Part shown: piece after piece, positions 37,793 to 60,052 of the stretch
Numbering within the stretch: position 1 is the stretch's first letter
Layout: each line of letters begins with the position of its first letter
Assembly (NCBI RefSeq): GCF_000426045.1
Contig: NZ_KE384490.1
Span: 62,001 to 126,000 of the forward strand
Length of the DNA stretch: 64,000 bases
From: Marmoricola sp. URHB0036
GTDB taxonomy: Bacteria > Actinomycetota > Actinomycetes > Propionibacteriales > Nocardioidaceae
Direction: 5' to 3'
Made by a program: the position numbers and the translations under genes
The notes under the pieces: model-generated
Told to the model about the DNA's origin: nothing
Seen by the model: only the letters and a program-made list of their open reading frames with translations
The model's database searches: none

Positions 37793-37915
37793 GGTCTGAG
37801 CGGGGACTCCTGCTACGCGCGGCCGGGGTCGCAGCGTCGGGGCGGACGGTTCCGGACGCGCTGCGGACCGCCCTCAGCGACCAAGGGCTGGCGGCACCCC
37901 CGGACGTCTCGGATG

Positions 37916-37948
37916 CGACTTGCCACGTTGTCACATCTTGACAAGTCG
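37916..37948. promoter_or_regulatory. Operator region of the XRE-TPR regulator gene
   Basis: CGACTTG (37916-37922) and CAAGTCG (37942-37948) form a perfect 7-bp inverted repeat with a 19-base spacer. Inside is TGTCACATCT (37929-37938), which recurs with one mismatch in the promoter of the secreted-peptide gene. TTGACA (37939-37944) could serve as a -35. The surrounding gap (37793-38110) holds no other supported feature; a possible 49-codon frame there is not convincing. Confidence 0.55.
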
Positions 37949-38110
37949 TGCTTAGATCAGGCTCCGAGGCGGGGCCTCTCGGGACCTCGTCGTTTCGGGA
38001 TTCGAGGTTGCGAGGGGTGCGCCTCGGGTCAGGGCGGCACGGGTTGCCAGTCGGGGTTGTCGCTTCTTGCCTGCTCAGGCCAATCGAGCGGGCACAATGT
38101 CGGCGTGGAC

Positions 38111-39460
38111 ATGCACTACGCCGAGCTGAGCCGGACCATCGACGCGGCCGAGCTGGGCCGGCGCATCCGGCACGCCCGGGTGGCTGCCGGGTTGACCCAG
38201 TCGCAGCTGGCCGGCGAGGACGCGTCGGCGGCGTACGTCTCCCGCATCGAGGCCGGTCAGCGCCGGCCCGAGGCCGGCCTGCTCGAACGGATGGCGACCC
38301 GGCTCGACGTGGGGCTCGAGCAGCTGCTGGGGGAGGAGTCGACGCCGGCGGATGCCGAGCGGCGACTCGAGGTCGACTACGCCGAGCTCTCGCTGGCTTC
38401 CGGAGACCCGGCCTCGGCGCTGGAGCGGCTCGACAAGGTGCTGGCCGACTCCTCCCTGGGGCTTGGTGGCGATCTCGAGCGTGCCGCTCGGCAGGCGCGC
38501 GCCCTCGCCCTGGAGGCACTCGGCCGGACCAGCGACGCGATCCAGCTGCTCGAGGACCTCGTGGCCGAGCCCCGGGCCGACGCGTCGTGGCTCAAGGCCC
38601 TGATCGCCCTGAGCAGATGTCATCGCGAGTCGGGCGACTTCGCCCGCGCGATCGCGGTGGGGGAGCAGGCGGCCGCCTACATCCAGGAGCTCGGCCTGGC
38701 CGGTACGACGGAGGCGATCCAGCTCACCGTCACCATCGCCGGCGCCTACATGGAGCGGGGCGACCTGGCCCACGCGATGCGCATGTGCCAGCGGGCCATC
38801 GACGAGGCCGAGCGTGTCGATTCCCCTGTGGCCAAGGGATCTGCCTACTGGAACGCCAGTGTCATCGAGTCCCGCCGGGGCTCGACCGTCACGGCACTGC
38901 AGCTGGCCGAGAAGGCGATGGCCCTCTTCGAGCTGGGCGACGACTCCCGCAACCTGGGGCGGCTGCGCACGCAGGTCGGGTTCATCCAGCTGCGTCTCGA
39001 CCCGCCGGATCCCGAGGGTGCCAAGAGCACGCTGCAGCAGGCCGAGCGCGAGCTGACCTGGTCCTCGGCAAGTGCGCTCGACCGGGCCGACCACCATCTG
39101 GCCGTCGCCAAGGCCCACCTCATGCTCGGGGAGCACCAGGAGGCGCTGACGCGCGTCGAGGAGGGTGAGGCGCTCATCGGGGGGCAGTCGCCGATGCTGC
39201 AGGCGGAGGCCCTCGTCGTGCGGGGACAGGTCAGCGCGGCCCGGGGTGATCTGGCCGCGGCACGAGAGAGCTACGGAGGGGCCATCCAGGTGCTGGCCGG
39301 TCTGGGCGTCGACCGCAACATCGCCCAGCTGTGGTTCGACCTGGCTGCCCTGCTCGAGGACGCCGGCGACTCGAACGCCGCGCTGGACGCCTATCGCCGG
39401 GGCGCGGCCTCGACAGGACTGGCGCGGCCGCGGTTCGCGGCCACGCCTGCCCCGTCGTGA
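38111..39460 (+). CDS. XRE-TPR cytosolic regulator (RRNPP-like receptor)
   Basis: About 449 residues from ATG 38111 (GTG 38105 is also in frame). Residues about 13-68 are an XRE helix-turn-helix (LGRRIRHARVAAGLTQSQLAG, AAYVSRIEAGQRRPEAGLLERMA). Residues about 80-440 are a TPR-like solenoid of paired helices with recurring Ala/Gly at TPR positions (LASGDPASALERL, ESGDFARAIAVGEQAA, ERGDLAHAMRMCQRAI, ARGDLAAARESYGGAI). This is the architecture of the peptide-binding RRNPP receptors PlcR, PrgX and Rgg. A tiny secreted-peptide gene lies seven bases beyond its stop on the other strand. No membrane segment is present. Confidence 0.85.
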   Translation: MHYAELSRTIDAAELGRRIRHARVAAGLTQSQLAGEDASAAYVSRIEAGQRRPEAGLLERMATRLDVGLEQLLGEESTPADAERRLEVDYAELSLASGDPASALERLDKVLADSSLGLGGDLERAARQARALALEALGRTSDAIQLLEDLVAEPRADASWLKALIALSRCHRESGDFARAIAVGEQAAAYIQELGLAGTTEAIQLTVTIAGAYMERGDLAHAMRMCQRAIDEAERVDSPVAKGSAYWNASVIESRRGSTVTALQLAEKAMALFELGDDSRNLGRLRTQVGFIQLRLDPPDPEGAKSTLQQAERELTWSSASALDRADHHLAVAKAHLMLGEHQEALTRVEEGEALIGGQSPMLQAEALVVRGQVSAARGDLAAARESYGGAIQVLAGLGVDRNIAQLWFDLAALLEDAGDSNAALDAYRRGAASTGLARPRFAATPAPS

Positions 39461-39466
39461 GCGTGG

Positions 39467-39589
39467 TCAGCAGCAGATGCGATCGGCCGCTCCGGCGGAA
39501 CCGGCAGCTCCCGTCGTTGCCGCGGTCACGCCGAGCACGCTTGCGATGACGATCAGGATCGTCGCTACGAAACGCTGTGCACCAGTCAT
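39467..39589 (-). CDS. Small secreted peptide (candidate signalling propeptide)
   Basis: This 40-codon gene starts with ATG 39589, eight bases behind a GAGGAGG ribosome site; a nearer ATG at 39597 in another frame is too close to that site. The product has a polar MTGAQR start, a hydrophobic core (FVATILIVIASVLGV), a small-residue Ala/Gly/Thr/Ser stretch with signal-peptidase-like AAG and GAA sites, and ends in ADRICC. After cleavage only about 5-12 residues would remain. That is the PapR/NprX pattern of peptide pheromone precursors. It is convergent with the XRE-TPR regulator gene, and its promoter shares sequence with that gene's promoter. Confidence 0.7.
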   Translation of the reverse strand: MTGAQRFVATILIVIASVLGVTAATTGAAGSAGAADRICC

Positions 39590-39648
39590 GAGTCATGCCT
39601 CCTCGGGTCACGCGCGGGGTGCGCGTGTGACACGAGGCGTAACATTCA

Positions 39649-39674
39649 GACAAGTCACATGACCAGATGTGTCA
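39649..39674. promoter_or_regulatory. Operator candidate of the secreted-peptide gene
   Basis: On the minus strand TGACACATCT (39674-39665) precedes GACTTGTC (39656-39649), the same two blocks in the same order as at the regulator promoter (TGTCACATCT then GACAAGTC). A CACAT-6-ATGTG inverted repeat spans 39656-39671. It lies about 60 bases upstream of the peptide start and also faces the divergent proline racemase gene. Confidence 0.5.
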
Positions 39675-39785
39675 GGCAGAGGCTCCGAGAGATGTAGTCC
39701 ACCTGGCAGAGCGGCGGAGGTCAGGCGTGGCCCACGGTCGTCGCTGATGCCACGCGCCCCGGATGGGCGTGGCAGGCTGCGGGGC

Positions 39786-55210: not shown

Positions 55211-55334
55211 GCGCGGCCAGGCGCTCATACCACCTAAATCGGACCTATCGGGTGAAAGTCTGTGGGTGGTTGATCGGTGGACCAGACCGGTTCTGTCCGG
55301 TTCTGGGCGATCCCCGGAAGCGGGGGGAGGATAT

Positions 55335-55370
55335 GCGAACGCGCCGCCGGGAGCGCGGTGTCGCGTTTGC
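55335..55370 (+). other. Leader hairpin upstream of the PKD protein gene
   Basis: GCGAACGCG (55335-55343) pairs with CGCGTTTGC (55362-55370, one G-U pair) and encloses CCGC/GCGG. It ends 17 bases before the GTG at 55388 and follows a GGGGGGAGG stretch that has no good start in the main frame. It might modulate translation. I could not match it to a known riboswitch class. Confidence 0.35.
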
Positions 55371-55387
55371 CTACGGGGGTCATCCGA

Positions 55388-58300
55388 GTGCGCAAGTACT
55401 TCTCCATGTTGCTGTTCGTCGTTCTGGTGGCGACGGGTGTCTCGACCCTGACGCCAGCCGCCCAGGCGGCCGACACCGGCAACACCGCCCCCCAGACGGG
55501 CAAGATCGTCAGCGACGAGCCGAGCGCCCTCACGCCGGACATCCTCGACGGCTCGACGTACTCGATCACCAAGGTCGGCAACCAGATCATCGTCGGCGGT
55601 CAGTTCACCCAGGTGCAGAACGCCAACACCTCCACGACCCTGACCCGGGTCGGCGTGCTCGCCTTCAACGCCACCACCGGCCAGGTCTCCACGACCTTCG
55701 CCCCCAACCCGCTCGGCACCGTCTACAAGGTGCTGCCGGCCGCGGACGGCCAGTCCGTCTACGTCGCCGGCTCGTTCACCTCGGCCGGCGGGCAGTCGAT
55801 GCCGGGCCGCATCTTCAAGATCAACGTCACCACCGGAGTCATCGACCCGACGTTCGTGGCGCCGACCATCAGCGGCGACATCCGCGACCTCGAGCTGGTC
55901 GGCACCCACCTGTTCGTCGCCGGCAAGATGACGCACTTCGCCGGCATCGCCCAGAAGGGTCTCGGCGCGCTGAACGCCGACACCGGCAAGCGTGACCCCT
56001 ACTTCAACGCCGTCATCGACGGGCTCCACCGTCCCGAGATCGCCGGCGCCGTCACCGACGTGCTGCAGATCTCGGTCAACAAGCAGAACACCCAGCTGAT
56101 GGCGGTCGGCAACTTCACCACCGTCGACGGCCAGGCGCGGTCCCAGATCGCCAAGTTCAACATCGCCAACTTCGCGAGCGCCCCTGCCGACCCCAACGCC
56201 CACCAGACGCTTTCGACGTGGTCGACCAACCAGTTCACCGCGGGCTGCTCCTCGAAGTTCGACACCTACATGACCGATGTCGAGTACTCCCCGGACGGCA
56301 GCTACTTCATCGTCTCCACCACCGGCGCCTGGGGCGGCACGCAGAGCAACAGCGGCACCATCGGCTGTGACGGCGTGTTCCGCTTCGAGTCCTCGGGCAC
56401 TGCTGCTGCCACGCCGGTGACCTGGTCGGCGTACACCGGCGGCGACACGACCTGGACCGTCGAGGTCACCGACAACGTCGTCTACACCGGCGGCCACATG
56501 CGCTGGCAGAACAACCCGTCGGCCGGAGACACCGCCGGTCAGGGTGCGGTCAGCCGTGAGGGCATCGCCGCGCTGAACCCGGTCAACGGCATGCCGTACT
56601 CCTGGAACCCGACTCGCGCCCGCGGCGTCGGTGTCCAGGACCTGCTCGCCACGAGCGACGGCCTGTACGTCGGATCCGACACCGAGCTGCTCGGGCACAC
56701 GACCGGTAACACCTACCACGCCCGCATCGCCTTCCTGCCCCTCGCGGGTGGCGGCAAGCTGCAGCCGCTGCAGTCCAACACGCTCCCGGCTGACGTCTAC
56801 AAGGTCGCGACCGCAGCCACCCAGCTGCAGAAGCGCACCTTCACCGGCACCACCGCCGGCACGGCCGCCAACGTCAACAACGGCCCGGGCTGGAGCACCA
56901 GCGTCGGTGCGTTCATGGTCAACGGCGTGCTCTACAAGCTGAGCACCGACGGTTCGATGACCAAGCAGACCTTCGACGGCACCAACTACGGCGCCGCCAC
57001 CGCGGTCAACACCTCGGACGCCCTGGTGGCCCAGACCGACTGGCACACCGACGTGAAGACGATCACCAGCATCTTCTACTCGGGCGGCTTCATCTACTAC
57101 ACGAAGTCCGGGACCACGACCGCCAACAACGTGCTCTACCGTCGGGCCTTCGAGATCGAGGACGGCGTGGTCGGCCAGCAGCGCTTCACCACCGCCACCA
57201 GCGGCACCGGCGGCATCGACTACCGCAACGTCCGCGGCGCCTTCGTCGCTGGCGGCAAGCTCTTCTTCGCCAGCTCCTCGGGCAACCTGTGGCAGGCCAC
57301 CTGGAGCCAGCCCAACCACGGCGCCGTCAACGGCACCGCTGCCGTCATCAGTGCCGCCGGCACCGGCTGGTCCTCGCGGGCCCTGTTCCCGATGCAGGTC
57401 AGCCCGGCCGCGGTGAACGACCCGCCGGTCGCCAACGCCTCCATCTCCTGCAACCAGCTCGTGTGCTCCTACGACGCCAGCGGGTCGACCGACCCCGAGG
57501 GTGGCGCGCTGACCTATGACTGGGACTTCGGCGACGGCACCGCTCACGGCACCGGCGCCACCGCGACGCACACCTACGCCTCCGCCGGTGACCGCCCGGT
57601 GACGCTGGTCGTGACCGACAACAAGGGTGCGACCAACGCGGTCACCCGGACGGCCACCGTGACCAGCTACGCCGACTCGATCAGCTTCGTGAACTCGGCC
57701 AACAACAACGGCAACCGCTCCAACCACACGATCACGGTGCCCACCGGCACCAAGGTCGGGGACACCCTGGTGCTGTTCTTCAGCGCCAACTCGACGACGC
57801 CCGTCTTCACCGGTCCTGCAGGCTGGACCCAGGCGGACAGCGAGAGCGCCGGCACCCAGATGGGCAAGGTCTACACGAAGACGGCCACCGCCTCCGACCT
57901 GGCCGGCACCGCCGTCACGGTCGTGACCACCAGCGCCGCCGATGGCACCCCCGTGCTCGTCAAGGACGACATGACGCTCGCCGTCTACCGTGGCATCGGT
58001 TCGCCGGCGGTCGCCGCGGTCGAGGGCACCAGCCAGACCGTCTCGACGGTCGTGCACCAGACCCCGACGGTCACGGCGCCCAACGGCACCGGCTGGCTGC
58101 TGAGCTACTGGTCCGACAAGGGCTCCACCACGACGGGATGGACCGGTCCGACCGGACAGACCCAGCGCTCCGAGGGCACGGCGTCCGGGACCGGTCACGT
58201 CTCCTCGCTGCTCACCGACAGCAACCGCCGGGTCAGCAGTGGCGTCCAGGGCGGCCTGAACGCCACGGCGGACCCGAGCAGCAAGAACTCCGGGCTGACC

Positions 58301-60052
58301 TTCAGCGTGCTGCTCAGCGGCCAGGGTGCTCCGGCTCCCAACCAGAACCCCGTGGCCCACGCCGCGCTGGTGGGCTGCACCGACCTGACCTGCTCCTTCG
58401 ACGGTGGCTCGTCGACCGACCCGGAGAGCGCCACGCTGACCTACGACTGGAACTGGGGTGACGGCACCACCCACGGCACCACCGCCACGGCGTCGCACGC
58501 CTTCGGGTCCAGCGGCACCAAGACCGTCACGCTGACCGTCACCGACCCGCAGAACGCGACCGGCACCGACACAGTGACCGCAGCGCCCACCGACCCAATC
58601 GTCAACACGGCTCCGACGGCGCACATCACCAGCACCGGCTGCACGGACCTGTCCTGCTCCCCGGACGGTTCGAGCTCCAGCGACCCCGACAGCGACACGC
58701 TGACCTACGACTGGAACTGGGGCGACAACAGCGCGCACAGCACCACCGCCAACCCCACCCACGTCTACGGCTCCGCCGGTGCGAAGACGGTCACGTTGAC
58801 CGTCAACGACGGCCACGGGCACACCGCGACCGACACGGCGACGCTGAACCCGACCGACCCGCCCAATACGGCTCCGACCGCACACATCACCGGGGTCAGC
58901 TGCACCAACCTGACCTGCTCGTTCACCGGGTCGACCTCGAGTGACCCGGAGAACGACACGCTGAGCTACAGCTGGGACTTCGGCGACAGCACGCCGCTGT
59001 CGACGAAGACCAACCCCTCACACACCTACGCCGCCTCGGGGGCCCAGACGGTGACGTTGACGGTCAGCGACGGCCACGGGCACACCGCCACCGACACGGC
59101 GACGGCGAACCCGACCGACCCGCCCAACACGGCTCCGACCGCGCACATCACCGGGGTCAGCTGCACCGACCTGACCTGCTCGTTCACCGGGTCGACCTCG
59201 AGTGACCCGGAGAACGACACGCTGAGCTACAGCTGGGACTTCGGCGACAGCACGCCGCTGTCGACGGAGACCAACCCGTCACACACCTACGCCGCCTCGG
59301 GGGCCCAGACGGTGACGTTGACGGTCAGCGACGGCCACGGGCACACCGCGACCGACACCCAGACGGCGAACCCGACCGACCCCGGCGTCGACCCGGTCAG
59401 CAACGTCGCGTTCATCGGTGCGGCGTCGACCGCCGGCAACCGCACCCTGGCCACGGTCACGCTGCCGAGCGGGGTGCACGTCGGAGACACCATGGTGCTG
59501 TTCTTCGGCGCCGCCAGCATCACGCCGACCTACACCGGTCCGAGCGGCTGGACCGAGATCGAGAACAAGAACGGCTCCAGCGCGATGGCCCTGCGGGCCT
59601 ACACGAAGACGGCGACCGCTGCCGACACCGCCGCCAACGTCAAGGTGACCGTGACGGCCTCGGCGATCGCCAAGTCCGACGTCACCGTCGCCGTCTACCG
59701 CAACACCGACGGCACCACACCGATCGCGGTGTCCGCCTCCAAGATCGACAACGCAGCCGGCGCCGCCCACACCAGCCCGGCCGTCACCTCGAGCGGGAGC
59801 ACGAACTGGCTGCTGACCTACTGGGCCGACCGGTCGAACACCTCGACCACGATCGCTGCGCCCACCGGTCCCAACGCGCCGACCGTCCGTGCGCAGGGTC
59901 TGCCCTCGGACACCGGCAGTGCCCACGCCGTCGGACTGTTCGCCGACAGCAACGGTCCGGTCGCCGCCGGTGCCCAGGGCCAGCTGACCGCGACCGCCAA
60001 CGGGGACAGCTCCCGCGGCGCGAGCGTGAGCATCCTGCTGAAGAGCAACTGA
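55388..60052 (+). CDS. Large secreted PKD-repeat surface protein
   Basis: About 1,554 residues from GTG 55388, which gives a clean signal peptide (VRKYFSMLLFVVLVATGV, cleavage near AQAAD). Residues about 40-460 are beta-propeller-like repeats of the delta-60/DUF5122 type (IIVGGQFTQV, VYVAGSFTSAGG, LFVAGKMTHFAG). Then come a PKD domain, a beta-sandwich module starting SISFVNSANNNGN, four PKD domains (each with YDWNWGDG or YSWDFGD), and a second copy of the sandwich starting SNVAFIGAASTAGN. The PKD modules have a conserved Cys pair (SCTxLTCSF). No membrane anchor or sortase motif ends the protein. Adhesion or matrix binding is likely; no catalytic domain is seen. Confidence 0.88.
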   Translation: MRKYFSMLLFVVLVATGVSTLTPAAQAADTGNTAPQTGKIVSDEPSALTPDILDGSTYSITKVGNQIIVGGQFTQVQNANTSTTLTRVGVLAFNATTGQVSTTFAPNPLGTVYKVLPAADGQSVYVAGSFTSAGGQSMPGRIFKINVTTGVIDPTFVAPTISGDIRDLELVGTHLFVAGKMTHFAGIAQKGLGALNADTGKRDPYFNAVIDGLHRPEIAGAVTDVLQISVNKQNTQLMAVGNFTTVDGQARSQIAKFNIANFASAPADPNAHQTLSTWSTNQFTAGCSSKFDTYMTDVEYSPDGSYFIVSTTGAWGGTQSNSGTIGCDGVFRFESSGTAAATPVTWSAYTGGDTTWTVEVTDNVVYTGGHMRWQNNPSAGDTAGQGAVSREGIAALNPVNGMPYSWNPTRARGVGVQDLLATSDGLYVGSDTELLGHTTGNTYHARIAFLPLAGGGKLQPLQSNTLPADVYKVATAATQLQKRTFTGTTAGTAANVNNGPGWSTSVGAFMVNGVLYKLSTDGSMTKQTFDGTNYGAATAVNTSDALVAQTDWHTDVKTITSIFYSGGFIYYTKSGTTTANNVLYRRAFEIEDGVVGQQRFTTATSGTGGIDYRNVRGAFVAGGKLFFASSSGNLWQATWSQPNHGAVNGTAAVISAAGTGWSSRALFPMQVSPAAVNDPPVANASISCNQLVCSYDASGSTDPEGGALTYDWDFGDGTAHGTGATATHTYASAGDRPVTLVVTDNKGATNAVTRTATVTSYADSISFVNSANNNGNRSNHTITVPTGTKVGDTLVLFFSANSTTPVFTGPAGWTQADSESAGTQMGKVYTKTATASDLAGTAVTVVTTSAADGTPVLVKDDMTLAVYRGIGSPAVAAVEGTSQTVSTVVHQTPTVTAPNGTGWLLSYWSDKGSTTTGWTGPTGQTQRSEGTASGTGHVSSLLTDSNRRVSSGVQGGLNATADPSSKNSGLTFSVLLSGQGAPAPNQNPVAHAALVGCTDLTCSFDGGSSTDPESATLTYDWNWGDGTTHGTTATASHAFGSSGTKTVTLTVTDPQNATGTDTVTAAPTDPIVNTAPTAHITSTGCTDLSCSPDGSSSSDPDSDTLTYDWNWGDNSAHSTTANPTHVYGSAGAKTVTLTVNDGHGHTATDTATLNPTDPPNTAPTAHITGVSCTNLTCSFTGSTSSDPENDTLSYSWDFGDSTPLSTKTNPSHTYAASGAQTVTLTVSDGHGHTATDTATANPTDPPNTAPTAHITGVSCTDLTCSFTGSTSSDPENDTLSYSWDFGDSTPLSTETNPSHTYAASGAQTVTLTVSDGHGHTATDTQTANPTDPGVDPVSNVAFIGAASTAGNRTLATVTLPSGVHVGDTMVLFFGAASITPTYTGPSGWTEIENKNGSSAMALRAYTKTATAADTAANVKVTVTASAIAKSDVTVAVYRNTDGTTPIAVSASKIDNAAGAAHTSPAVTSSGSTNWLLTYWADRSNTSTTIAAPTGPNAPTVRAQGLPSDTGSAHAVGLFADSNGPVAAGAQGQLTATANGDSSRGASVSILLKSN
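58860..59381 (+). repeat. Tandem near-identical PKD repeat units of 261 bp
   Basis: Copies at about 58860-59120 and 59121-59381 differ at only a few bases and encode two almost identical 87-residue PKD domains. The two PKD units before them are clearly more diverged. This points to recent in-frame duplication or homogenisation. Confidence 0.8.

Follow-up and report, generated by a model that had tools for sequence, protein, structure and literature searches.

Do two adjoining genes of the actinobacterium Marmoricola sp. URHB0036 encode a peptide pheromone and the receptor that senses it? The genes are found within a stretch of 64,000 nucleotides (contig NZ_KE384490.1, positions 62,001 to 126,000), hereafter termed the window. 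One encodes a regulator, called the receptor below, that carries an XRE-type helix-turn-helix (HTH) domain and tetratricopeptide repeats (TPRs), and the other is a mini-gene for a predicted propeptide. We judge it likely that this two-gene module specifies an exported and re-imported peptide pheromone together with its TPR receptor, in the manner of the RRNPP (or RRNPPA) systems. A preliminary description of the locus had proposed such a pair on the model of PlcR-PapR, and this proposal fits the conserved pairing of the two genes, the variable tails found near similar receptors, the half-sites shared by the promoters, and the HTH-TPR fold.

Both genes are present as first described, including the strong ribosome-binding site, putative signal peptide and tail ADRICC of the 40-codon gene. 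They are indeed convergent, although 6 nucleotides, not seven, separate the two stop codons. The features of the locus are as follows.

38105 to 39460, plus strand: receptor gene, encoding an XRE-type HTH and nine TPRs; 451 amino acids from GTG 38105, or 449 from ATG 38111.
39467 to 39589, minus strand: propeptide gene, 40 amino acids plus stop, with a putative signal peptide and the tail ADRICC, recognized by its frame, ribosome-binding site and positional conservation.
39470 to 39487, minus strand: codons of the likely released peptide ADRICC, assuming a cut after AxA (residues 32-34) that was placed by eye; DRICC is the alternative product.
39598 to 39603, minus strand: AGGAGG, the ribosome-binding site of the propeptide gene, identified from its sequence.
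38093 to 38098, plus strand: CACAAT box, a probable -10 element, 6 nucleotides before GTG 38105, with the CA[CG]AAT spacing of the family.
37928 to 37944, no strand assigned: perfect palindrome TTGTCACATCTTGACAA, a candidate operator upstream of the receptor and the only perfect copy of TTGYCA-N5-TGRCAA in the 4.83-Mb genome; the motif is enriched in the peptide promoters of relatives.
39658 to 39675, minus strand: degenerate version of the candidate receptor operator, lying in the promoter of the propeptide gene, with 13 of 18 bases identical.

In the product of the mini-gene, MTGAQRFVATILIVIASVLGVTAATTGAAGSAGAADRICC, there is a basic residue close to the N terminus, then a hydrophobic core, and the AxA motif followed by the tail. 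Its last two codons specify the conserved Cys-Cys (CC), and AGGAGG lies 8 nucleotides before its ATG. Signal peptides were assessed by eye and with simple scripts, and hydrophobicity was itself a filter condition for candidates. The peptide matches no Pfam or NCBIfam family at E<=0.1, including DUF397 and toxin domains. In the receptor, Pfam places HTH_31/HTH_3 at residues 14-71 and TPR families across the remainder, while an NCBIfam scan gives nothing above curated cut-offs. The best named relatives are from Nocardioides and Marmoricola.

The receptor frame is open from 37913, and the regulator had been described as a region beginning at 37916. The gene is there but its start is not. Homologues begin with M-D-x-x-x-A-E-L, and this feature, together with the CACAAT box 6 nucleotides upstream, makes GTG 38105 the most likely start codon (ATG 38111 is the alternative). 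Positions 37913-38104 are therefore probably intergenic. Of 113 receptors of the family, 58 have a CA[CG]AAT box 6-7 nucleotides ahead of their start, and this common spacing suggests that the receptor mRNA is leaderless.

A similarity search with the 40-amino-acid peptide in 294 genomes of the family uncovered no convincing relative. Twelve of these genomes match at E<=0.1, among them the window's own; every other match is weak, with a best E of 0.0016, and falls inside a different open frame of at least 76 amino acids. Because this search yielded only such matches, conservation of the mini-gene was judged by position and anatomy. By contrast, a search with the regulator itself gives matches at E<=1e-20 in 100 of the 294 sampled genomes. 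A first scan that imposed no condition on the tail found CC-ended mini-genes in 18 of 30 loci. We then considered 142 receptor open reading frames (ORFs), fragments included. In 85 of them, a convergent mini-gene that ends in CC and has a ribosome-binding site and hydrophobic core lies no more than 600 nucleotides downstream, and none has a co-directional one.

Our main family set consists of 113 full-length receptors, non-redundant at 90% identity. The preliminary description held that its proposal would fail if the small gene were not conserved beside XRE-TPR homologues, and conservation is evident by a wide margin. A hydrophobic mini-gene with CC at the end, or one residue from it, is located within 600 nucleotides of 87 of the 113 receptors. 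These mini-genes are convergent in 75 cases, divergent in 7, upstream and co-directional in 4, and present in two places in 1. When the tail filter is removed, there are 73 convergent candidates in 65 of the 113 loci, of which 70 end in CC, 2 in CC plus one or two residues, and 1 in another sequence; the co-directional strand holds 3 candidates, none with CC. Among 75 receptors of named loci, 56 have a CC mini-gene, and there are 62 such ORFs in the 89,036 nucleotides near these receptors. Beyond 1.2 kb from the same receptors there are 3 in 390,634 nucleotides, one of which (L169) resembles a real member. Thus, the pairing of receptor and mini-gene exceeds chance by far. No third gene is shared among the 75 loci, the largest flank cluster occurring in 14 of them.

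The number of genes on either side of the pair is sometimes greater than one. Eight of the 113 loci (L063, L069, L070, L075, L079, L084, L091 and L098) carry two or three convergent CC-tailed peptide genes in tandem downstream of one receptor, with identical or near-identical tails, and a ninth, L136, has two receptors. Loci L104 and L107 contain four to five tandem receptor ORFs, and the single CC-ended peptide gene found in each is at the end of the array. Perhaps the extra receptors of these arrays share, or eavesdrop on, one signal.

The pair also occurs widely across the phylum, with its two genes arranged in various ways, which goes beyond what was first claimed for it. Profile searches recovered relatives in 98 of 394 sampled genomes of the class (E<=1e-25) and in 23 of 296 sampled genomes of the phylum (E<=1e-40), 21 of these outside the class. 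Both genome sets are samples, and neighbourhoods were inspected at fetched loci. Close to 73 class receptors, 33 candidates are CC-tailed, 7 are aromatic-Pro-tailed and 5 are of another kind, and the corresponding numbers for 18 receptors from other classes are 2, 8 and 2. The same filter applied near 157 control genes gave 14 candidates, of which 10 are upstream and co-directional, 3 convergent and 1 divergent. Over the wider set, a CC or aromatic-Pro candidate adjoins 135 of 204 receptors. Internal stops were reported for some class matches but are not taken as recoding; in L237 and L238, the two loci rechecked, the in-ORF match ends at model position 439 and the stop looks like the gene's own.

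Cys-Cys, the terminus that first drew attention to the locus, is the commonest tail, although across the phylum it is not the only one. Distant receptors often retain a mini-gene, mostly in divergent orientation, with tails such as WPGMCC, NWPHH and GFPWPK. Other tails include GTWCC, GIWCC, FPPCC (Streptomyces fuscichromogenes, L207) and GPGPCC with an extension (Streptomyces L209 and L217), and outside the class KWPWG and APWPHCC accompany NWPHH and GFPWPK. An AxA-type cut, judged by eye, would free about 5-8 residues from the outside-class peptides, and RRNPP pheromones are usually of about 5-8 residues. Mapped on a tree of 204 receptor rows, the 135 rows that have a pair show 10 changes of arrangement and 40 changes of tail class. 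The mini-gene of L267, located about 75 nucleotides from its receptor in divergent orientation, has a signal-like start followed by the repeat TVGGSWPTSQDP, in which TVGGSWPT occurs three times and is followed twice by SQDP. It is possibly a multi-copy propeptide.

The promoters of the two genes have a motif in common. There are 106 TTGYCA half-sites in 76 peptide promoters, compared with 11.1 in shuffled sequences (maximum 19), and 36 of these promoters carry two or more (0.87 in shuffles). The 113 receptor promoters hold 45 half-sites where 11.9 are expected, and 315 control promoters, taken upstream of long ORFs that are unverified as genes, hold 10, with none carrying two. The palindrome TTGYCA-N5-TGRCAA, allowing up to 2 mismatches, is found in 36 of the 76 peptide promoters (0.65 in shuffles) and in the last 120 nucleotides of 12 of the 113 receptor promoters (0.75 in shuffles). 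Part of the TTGYCA signal may represent -35 elements, but not all of it, because the sites are repeated and palindromic. In the window, the resemblance of positions 39658-39675 to the receptor operator was reached by 4 of 2000 base shuffles.

AlphaFold predicts that the receptor is an HTH followed by a nine-TPR superhelix (predicted local distance difference test 91.7, predicted template modelling score 0.80). Pfam and AlphaFold thus both point to a cytosolic TPR receptor with an N-terminal XRE HTH, as is typical of RRNPP systems. The profile match to PlcR covers residues 13-236 (E 2.7e-13) and is the best natural match over HTH and TPR, behind three designed TPR proteins. In a single-sequence search, ComR and PlcR were matched over the HTH only, ComR being the best PDB match (E 5.8e-05). 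As to descent from Bacillota RRNPPA proteins, PlcR is the best natural profile match, yet HTH and TPR folds are generic, and Foldseek gives similar scores to TPR proteins that are designed or eukaryotic. An RRNPP-like pheromone system would be the simplest account of the locus, with the likeness to PlcR-PapR being one of anatomy and not a claim of descent.

That likeness consists of a cytosolic XRE HTH-TPR receptor adjoining a small gene for a propeptide that here is predicted to be secreted. PlcR-PapR belongs to the Bacillus cereus group of the Bacillota, whereas our system is from Actinomycetota and its genes are mostly convergent or divergent. PlcR is also shorter (280 residues in 3u3w) than the window receptor with its nine modelled TPRs, and the C-terminal end of PapR is unlike the Cys-Cys or aromatic-Pro tails found here. 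The ComR-ComS and Rgg-SHP systems of streptococci similarly join an HTH-TPR-like receptor to an adjacent short propeptide, but similarity was detected in the HTH only, and the Cys-Cys end and the phylum are different. The aromatic-rich tails do recall the Trp pair of ComS. Rap-Phr likewise combines a TPR receptor with a short pheromone, although Rap, according to PMC9765709, has no HTH DNA-binding domain. The threefold repeat of L267 is reminiscent of the tandemly duplicated propeptides of the Rap-Phr kind that PMC11343458 describes. Closer to home, the NsdA family and the FxSxx-COOH TPR proteins of NCBIfam are actinobacterial TPR regulators whose weak similarity gives scores well short of the curated thresholds (19.4 bits against 75, and 25.8 bits against 300). 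XRE-DUF397 pairs of Streptomyces also place an XRE regulator beside a small gene, as outlined in PMC10364602, but the partner here is a putative signal peptide plus a short tail.

How would such a module operate? The 40-amino-acid propeptide would be exported through Sec, and signal peptidase, perhaps with a further trim, would free a short C-terminal peptide (ADRICC or DRICC). An oligopeptide permease might then take the peptide back up, which is possible because the genome encodes five oligopeptide-binding proteins (SBP_bac_5). Once inside, the peptide would bind the groove of the TPR domain and alter, in one or the other direction, how the XRE HTH acts at operators of the TTGYCA type in the promoters of both genes, forming an autoregulatory loop. 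Other target promoters would probably be regulated as well.

In one clade, the tails diverge faster than the signals and the receptors, which fits a pheromone. In this group of 15 receptors with divergent mini-genes (L269 and L281-L294), 8 pairs are more than 75% identical. Average identity in these pairs is 87% for the receptors, 77% for the initial 30 residues of the peptides and 24% for the final 12 residues, which were compared ungapped from the peptide end. For the next 18 pairs these averages are 68%, 67% and 31%. The family of these receptors also includes a paralogue group composed of L270, L271 and L295-L299. Among the seven receptors of the L269/L281-L294 group with non-CC tails, 136 positions carry at least three residues, and only 2 of these are in the HTH (residues 1-75), with 134 in the TPR part. 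Within the TPR part of these seven receptors, the groove is not a focus of variation (24 of 54 groove positions versus 134 of 360 TPR positions). Tails in the Nocardioidaceae are more conserved: among 94 unique peptides that had been chosen for ending in CC, position -3 is W in 62 and position -6 is R in 41.

Groove positions were assigned by the canonical TPR register. Among 87 family receptors they are more conserved than pooled surface positions (P 0.0002), notably at W247, N248, R286, R169 and T208. Within the L269/L281-L294 group, 7 of the 8 receptors paired with a CC tail retain N248, compared with none of the 7 others. Covariation between the peptide C terminus and the TPR groove had been suggested as a check, and the association is suggestive without reaching significance once the tree is considered. 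We therefore set aside the Fisher tests that tied groove residues to CC tails after this correction.

Several observations weigh against the pheromone-receptor interpretation. Under the filters used, no candidate mini-gene was found beside 26 of the 113 receptors in the family set, 28 of the 73 in the class set and 6 of the 18 in the phylum set, and the whole paralogue group named above shows no convincing signal-peptide mini-gene at close range. Some of the 26 family cases reflect starts misjudged by the filter (L077 and L057), a CCRR tail (L126) or multi-receptor arrays (L104 and L107). The ratio of nonsynonymous to synonymous differences (pN/pS) in the mini-gene is 0.68 pooled over 113 same-length, non-independent pairs, uncorrected for saturation, and 85% of pairs are below 1. 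This appears to be modest support for coding; the retention of start, ribosome-binding site, signal and tail while the position of the gene shifts argues more strongly for it. The link between N248 and CC tails is strong by Fisher's test over all rows but not significant after tree correction (median p 0.25), and the groove, at 1.72 bits, shows no excess conservation over other helix-A surface positions at 1.71 bits. The top Foldseek matches are mostly unrelated TPR proteins; the PlcR-PapR-DNA complex is second in the ranking and phi3T Rap eleventh. Finally, the perfect palindrome of the window is about 160 nucleotides before the presumed receptor start, and the window's peptide promoter has no good strict palindrome (best match 4 mismatches).

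The mini-gene could instead encode a secreted effector, either antimicrobial or binding thiols or metals, that is merely regulated by the XRE-TPR protein, whose TPR ligand would be something else. Adjacency and a shared promoter motif suit any local pair of regulator and target, and Cys-Cys could bind metal or form a disulfide. However, there is no shared modification, export or immunity gene in the flanks, the predicted tails are very short, and Cys-free tails occur beside the same receptor family. Moreover, the TPR part and the tail vary together in the clade described above while the HTH does not, and we consider an effector unlikely.

A second possibility, which we regard as quite improbable, is that the product stays uncleaved in the membrane and, as a small protein there, tethers or titrates the regulator, as in a toxin-antitoxin-like or anti-regulator pair, with no cell-to-cell signalling. 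All accepted candidates have a hydrophobic core, as the filter demanded, and the products from other classes, at 27-35 amino acids, comprise hardly more than this core. By the positive-inside rule, however, a basic N terminus and hydrophobic core place the C-terminal tail outside, so this conserved end would be on the opposite side of the membrane from the cytosolic TPR domain. In addition, AxA-type motifs precede the tail in all 94 unique CC peptides, albeit by a loose pattern, and the Pfam and NCBIfam searches that found no DUF397 or toxin domain on the small partner separate it from XRE-DUF397 and type II toxin-antitoxin pairs. The notion that TGCTGCTGA, the conserved end, functions as DNA or RNA, for example within a convergent terminator, and not as peptide can be given very little credence: 88 of 101 family CC ends are exactly TGC TGC TGA, but the Cys and stop codons vary (TGT, TAG, TAA), the tails CCR, CCK and CCLV occur, divergent or upstream genes retain start, ribosome-binding site and signal, and Rfam, promoter and terminator scans of the window gave no match.

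In the accessible text of several sources, RRNPPA receptors are described in Bacillota and actinobacterial signals as small molecules (PMC10075063, PMC9765709, PMC12700828, PMC4748050, PMC13220807, PMC13419125). The preliminary description knew of no actinobacterial counterpart, and full-text literature searches likewise found none; preprints and most subscription papers are outside their coverage, so absence from print is unproven. Peptide-based cell-to-cell signalling of this kind in Actinobacteria thus appears to be undescribed so far. If the pheromone-receptor interpretation is correct, a conserved pair of propeptide and TPR receptor in Nocardioides, Streptomyces and other lineages opens peptide signalling in a phylum best known for antibiotics. 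The system is directly testable with synthetic peptides of about 5-14 residues, and variable tails beside similar receptors make it suited to investigating the evolution of signal specificity. Annotation readily overlooks genes of this length. More tentatively, Actinobacteria across the phylum might use a common language of short peptide pheromones that end in aromatic-Pro or Cys-Cys motifs, read by HTH-TPR receptors that arose or diversified apart from Bacillota RRNPP; in its commonest branch, the Cys pair could be a redox mark that is oxidised outside and reduced after re-import. We find this idea somewhat doubtful.

Relatives of the receptor also occur on plasmids. None of 19 candidate stretches from viral contigs was confirmed, and one unannotated fragment among phage records matches. 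There are 18 matching plasmid records, 14 of them from Streptomyces. Among six inspected closely, L274 alone has a convincing CC-ended neighbour, a 71-amino-acid annotated hypothetical protein ending in PLCC. The receptor homologues of L274 and L275 are on large linear Streptomyces plasmids, located beside a BTAD regulator and a cytochrome P450 gene (L274) or an amino acid adenylation gene (L275). Possibly these two receptors control metabolite clusters.

Elsewhere in the window, at 55277-60052 on the plus strand, there is a large, secreted-looking ORF of 1591 amino acids (by its first start) with strong base skew. It contains about four 261-bp repeats at 58374-59382, which we take to encode PKD-like domains.
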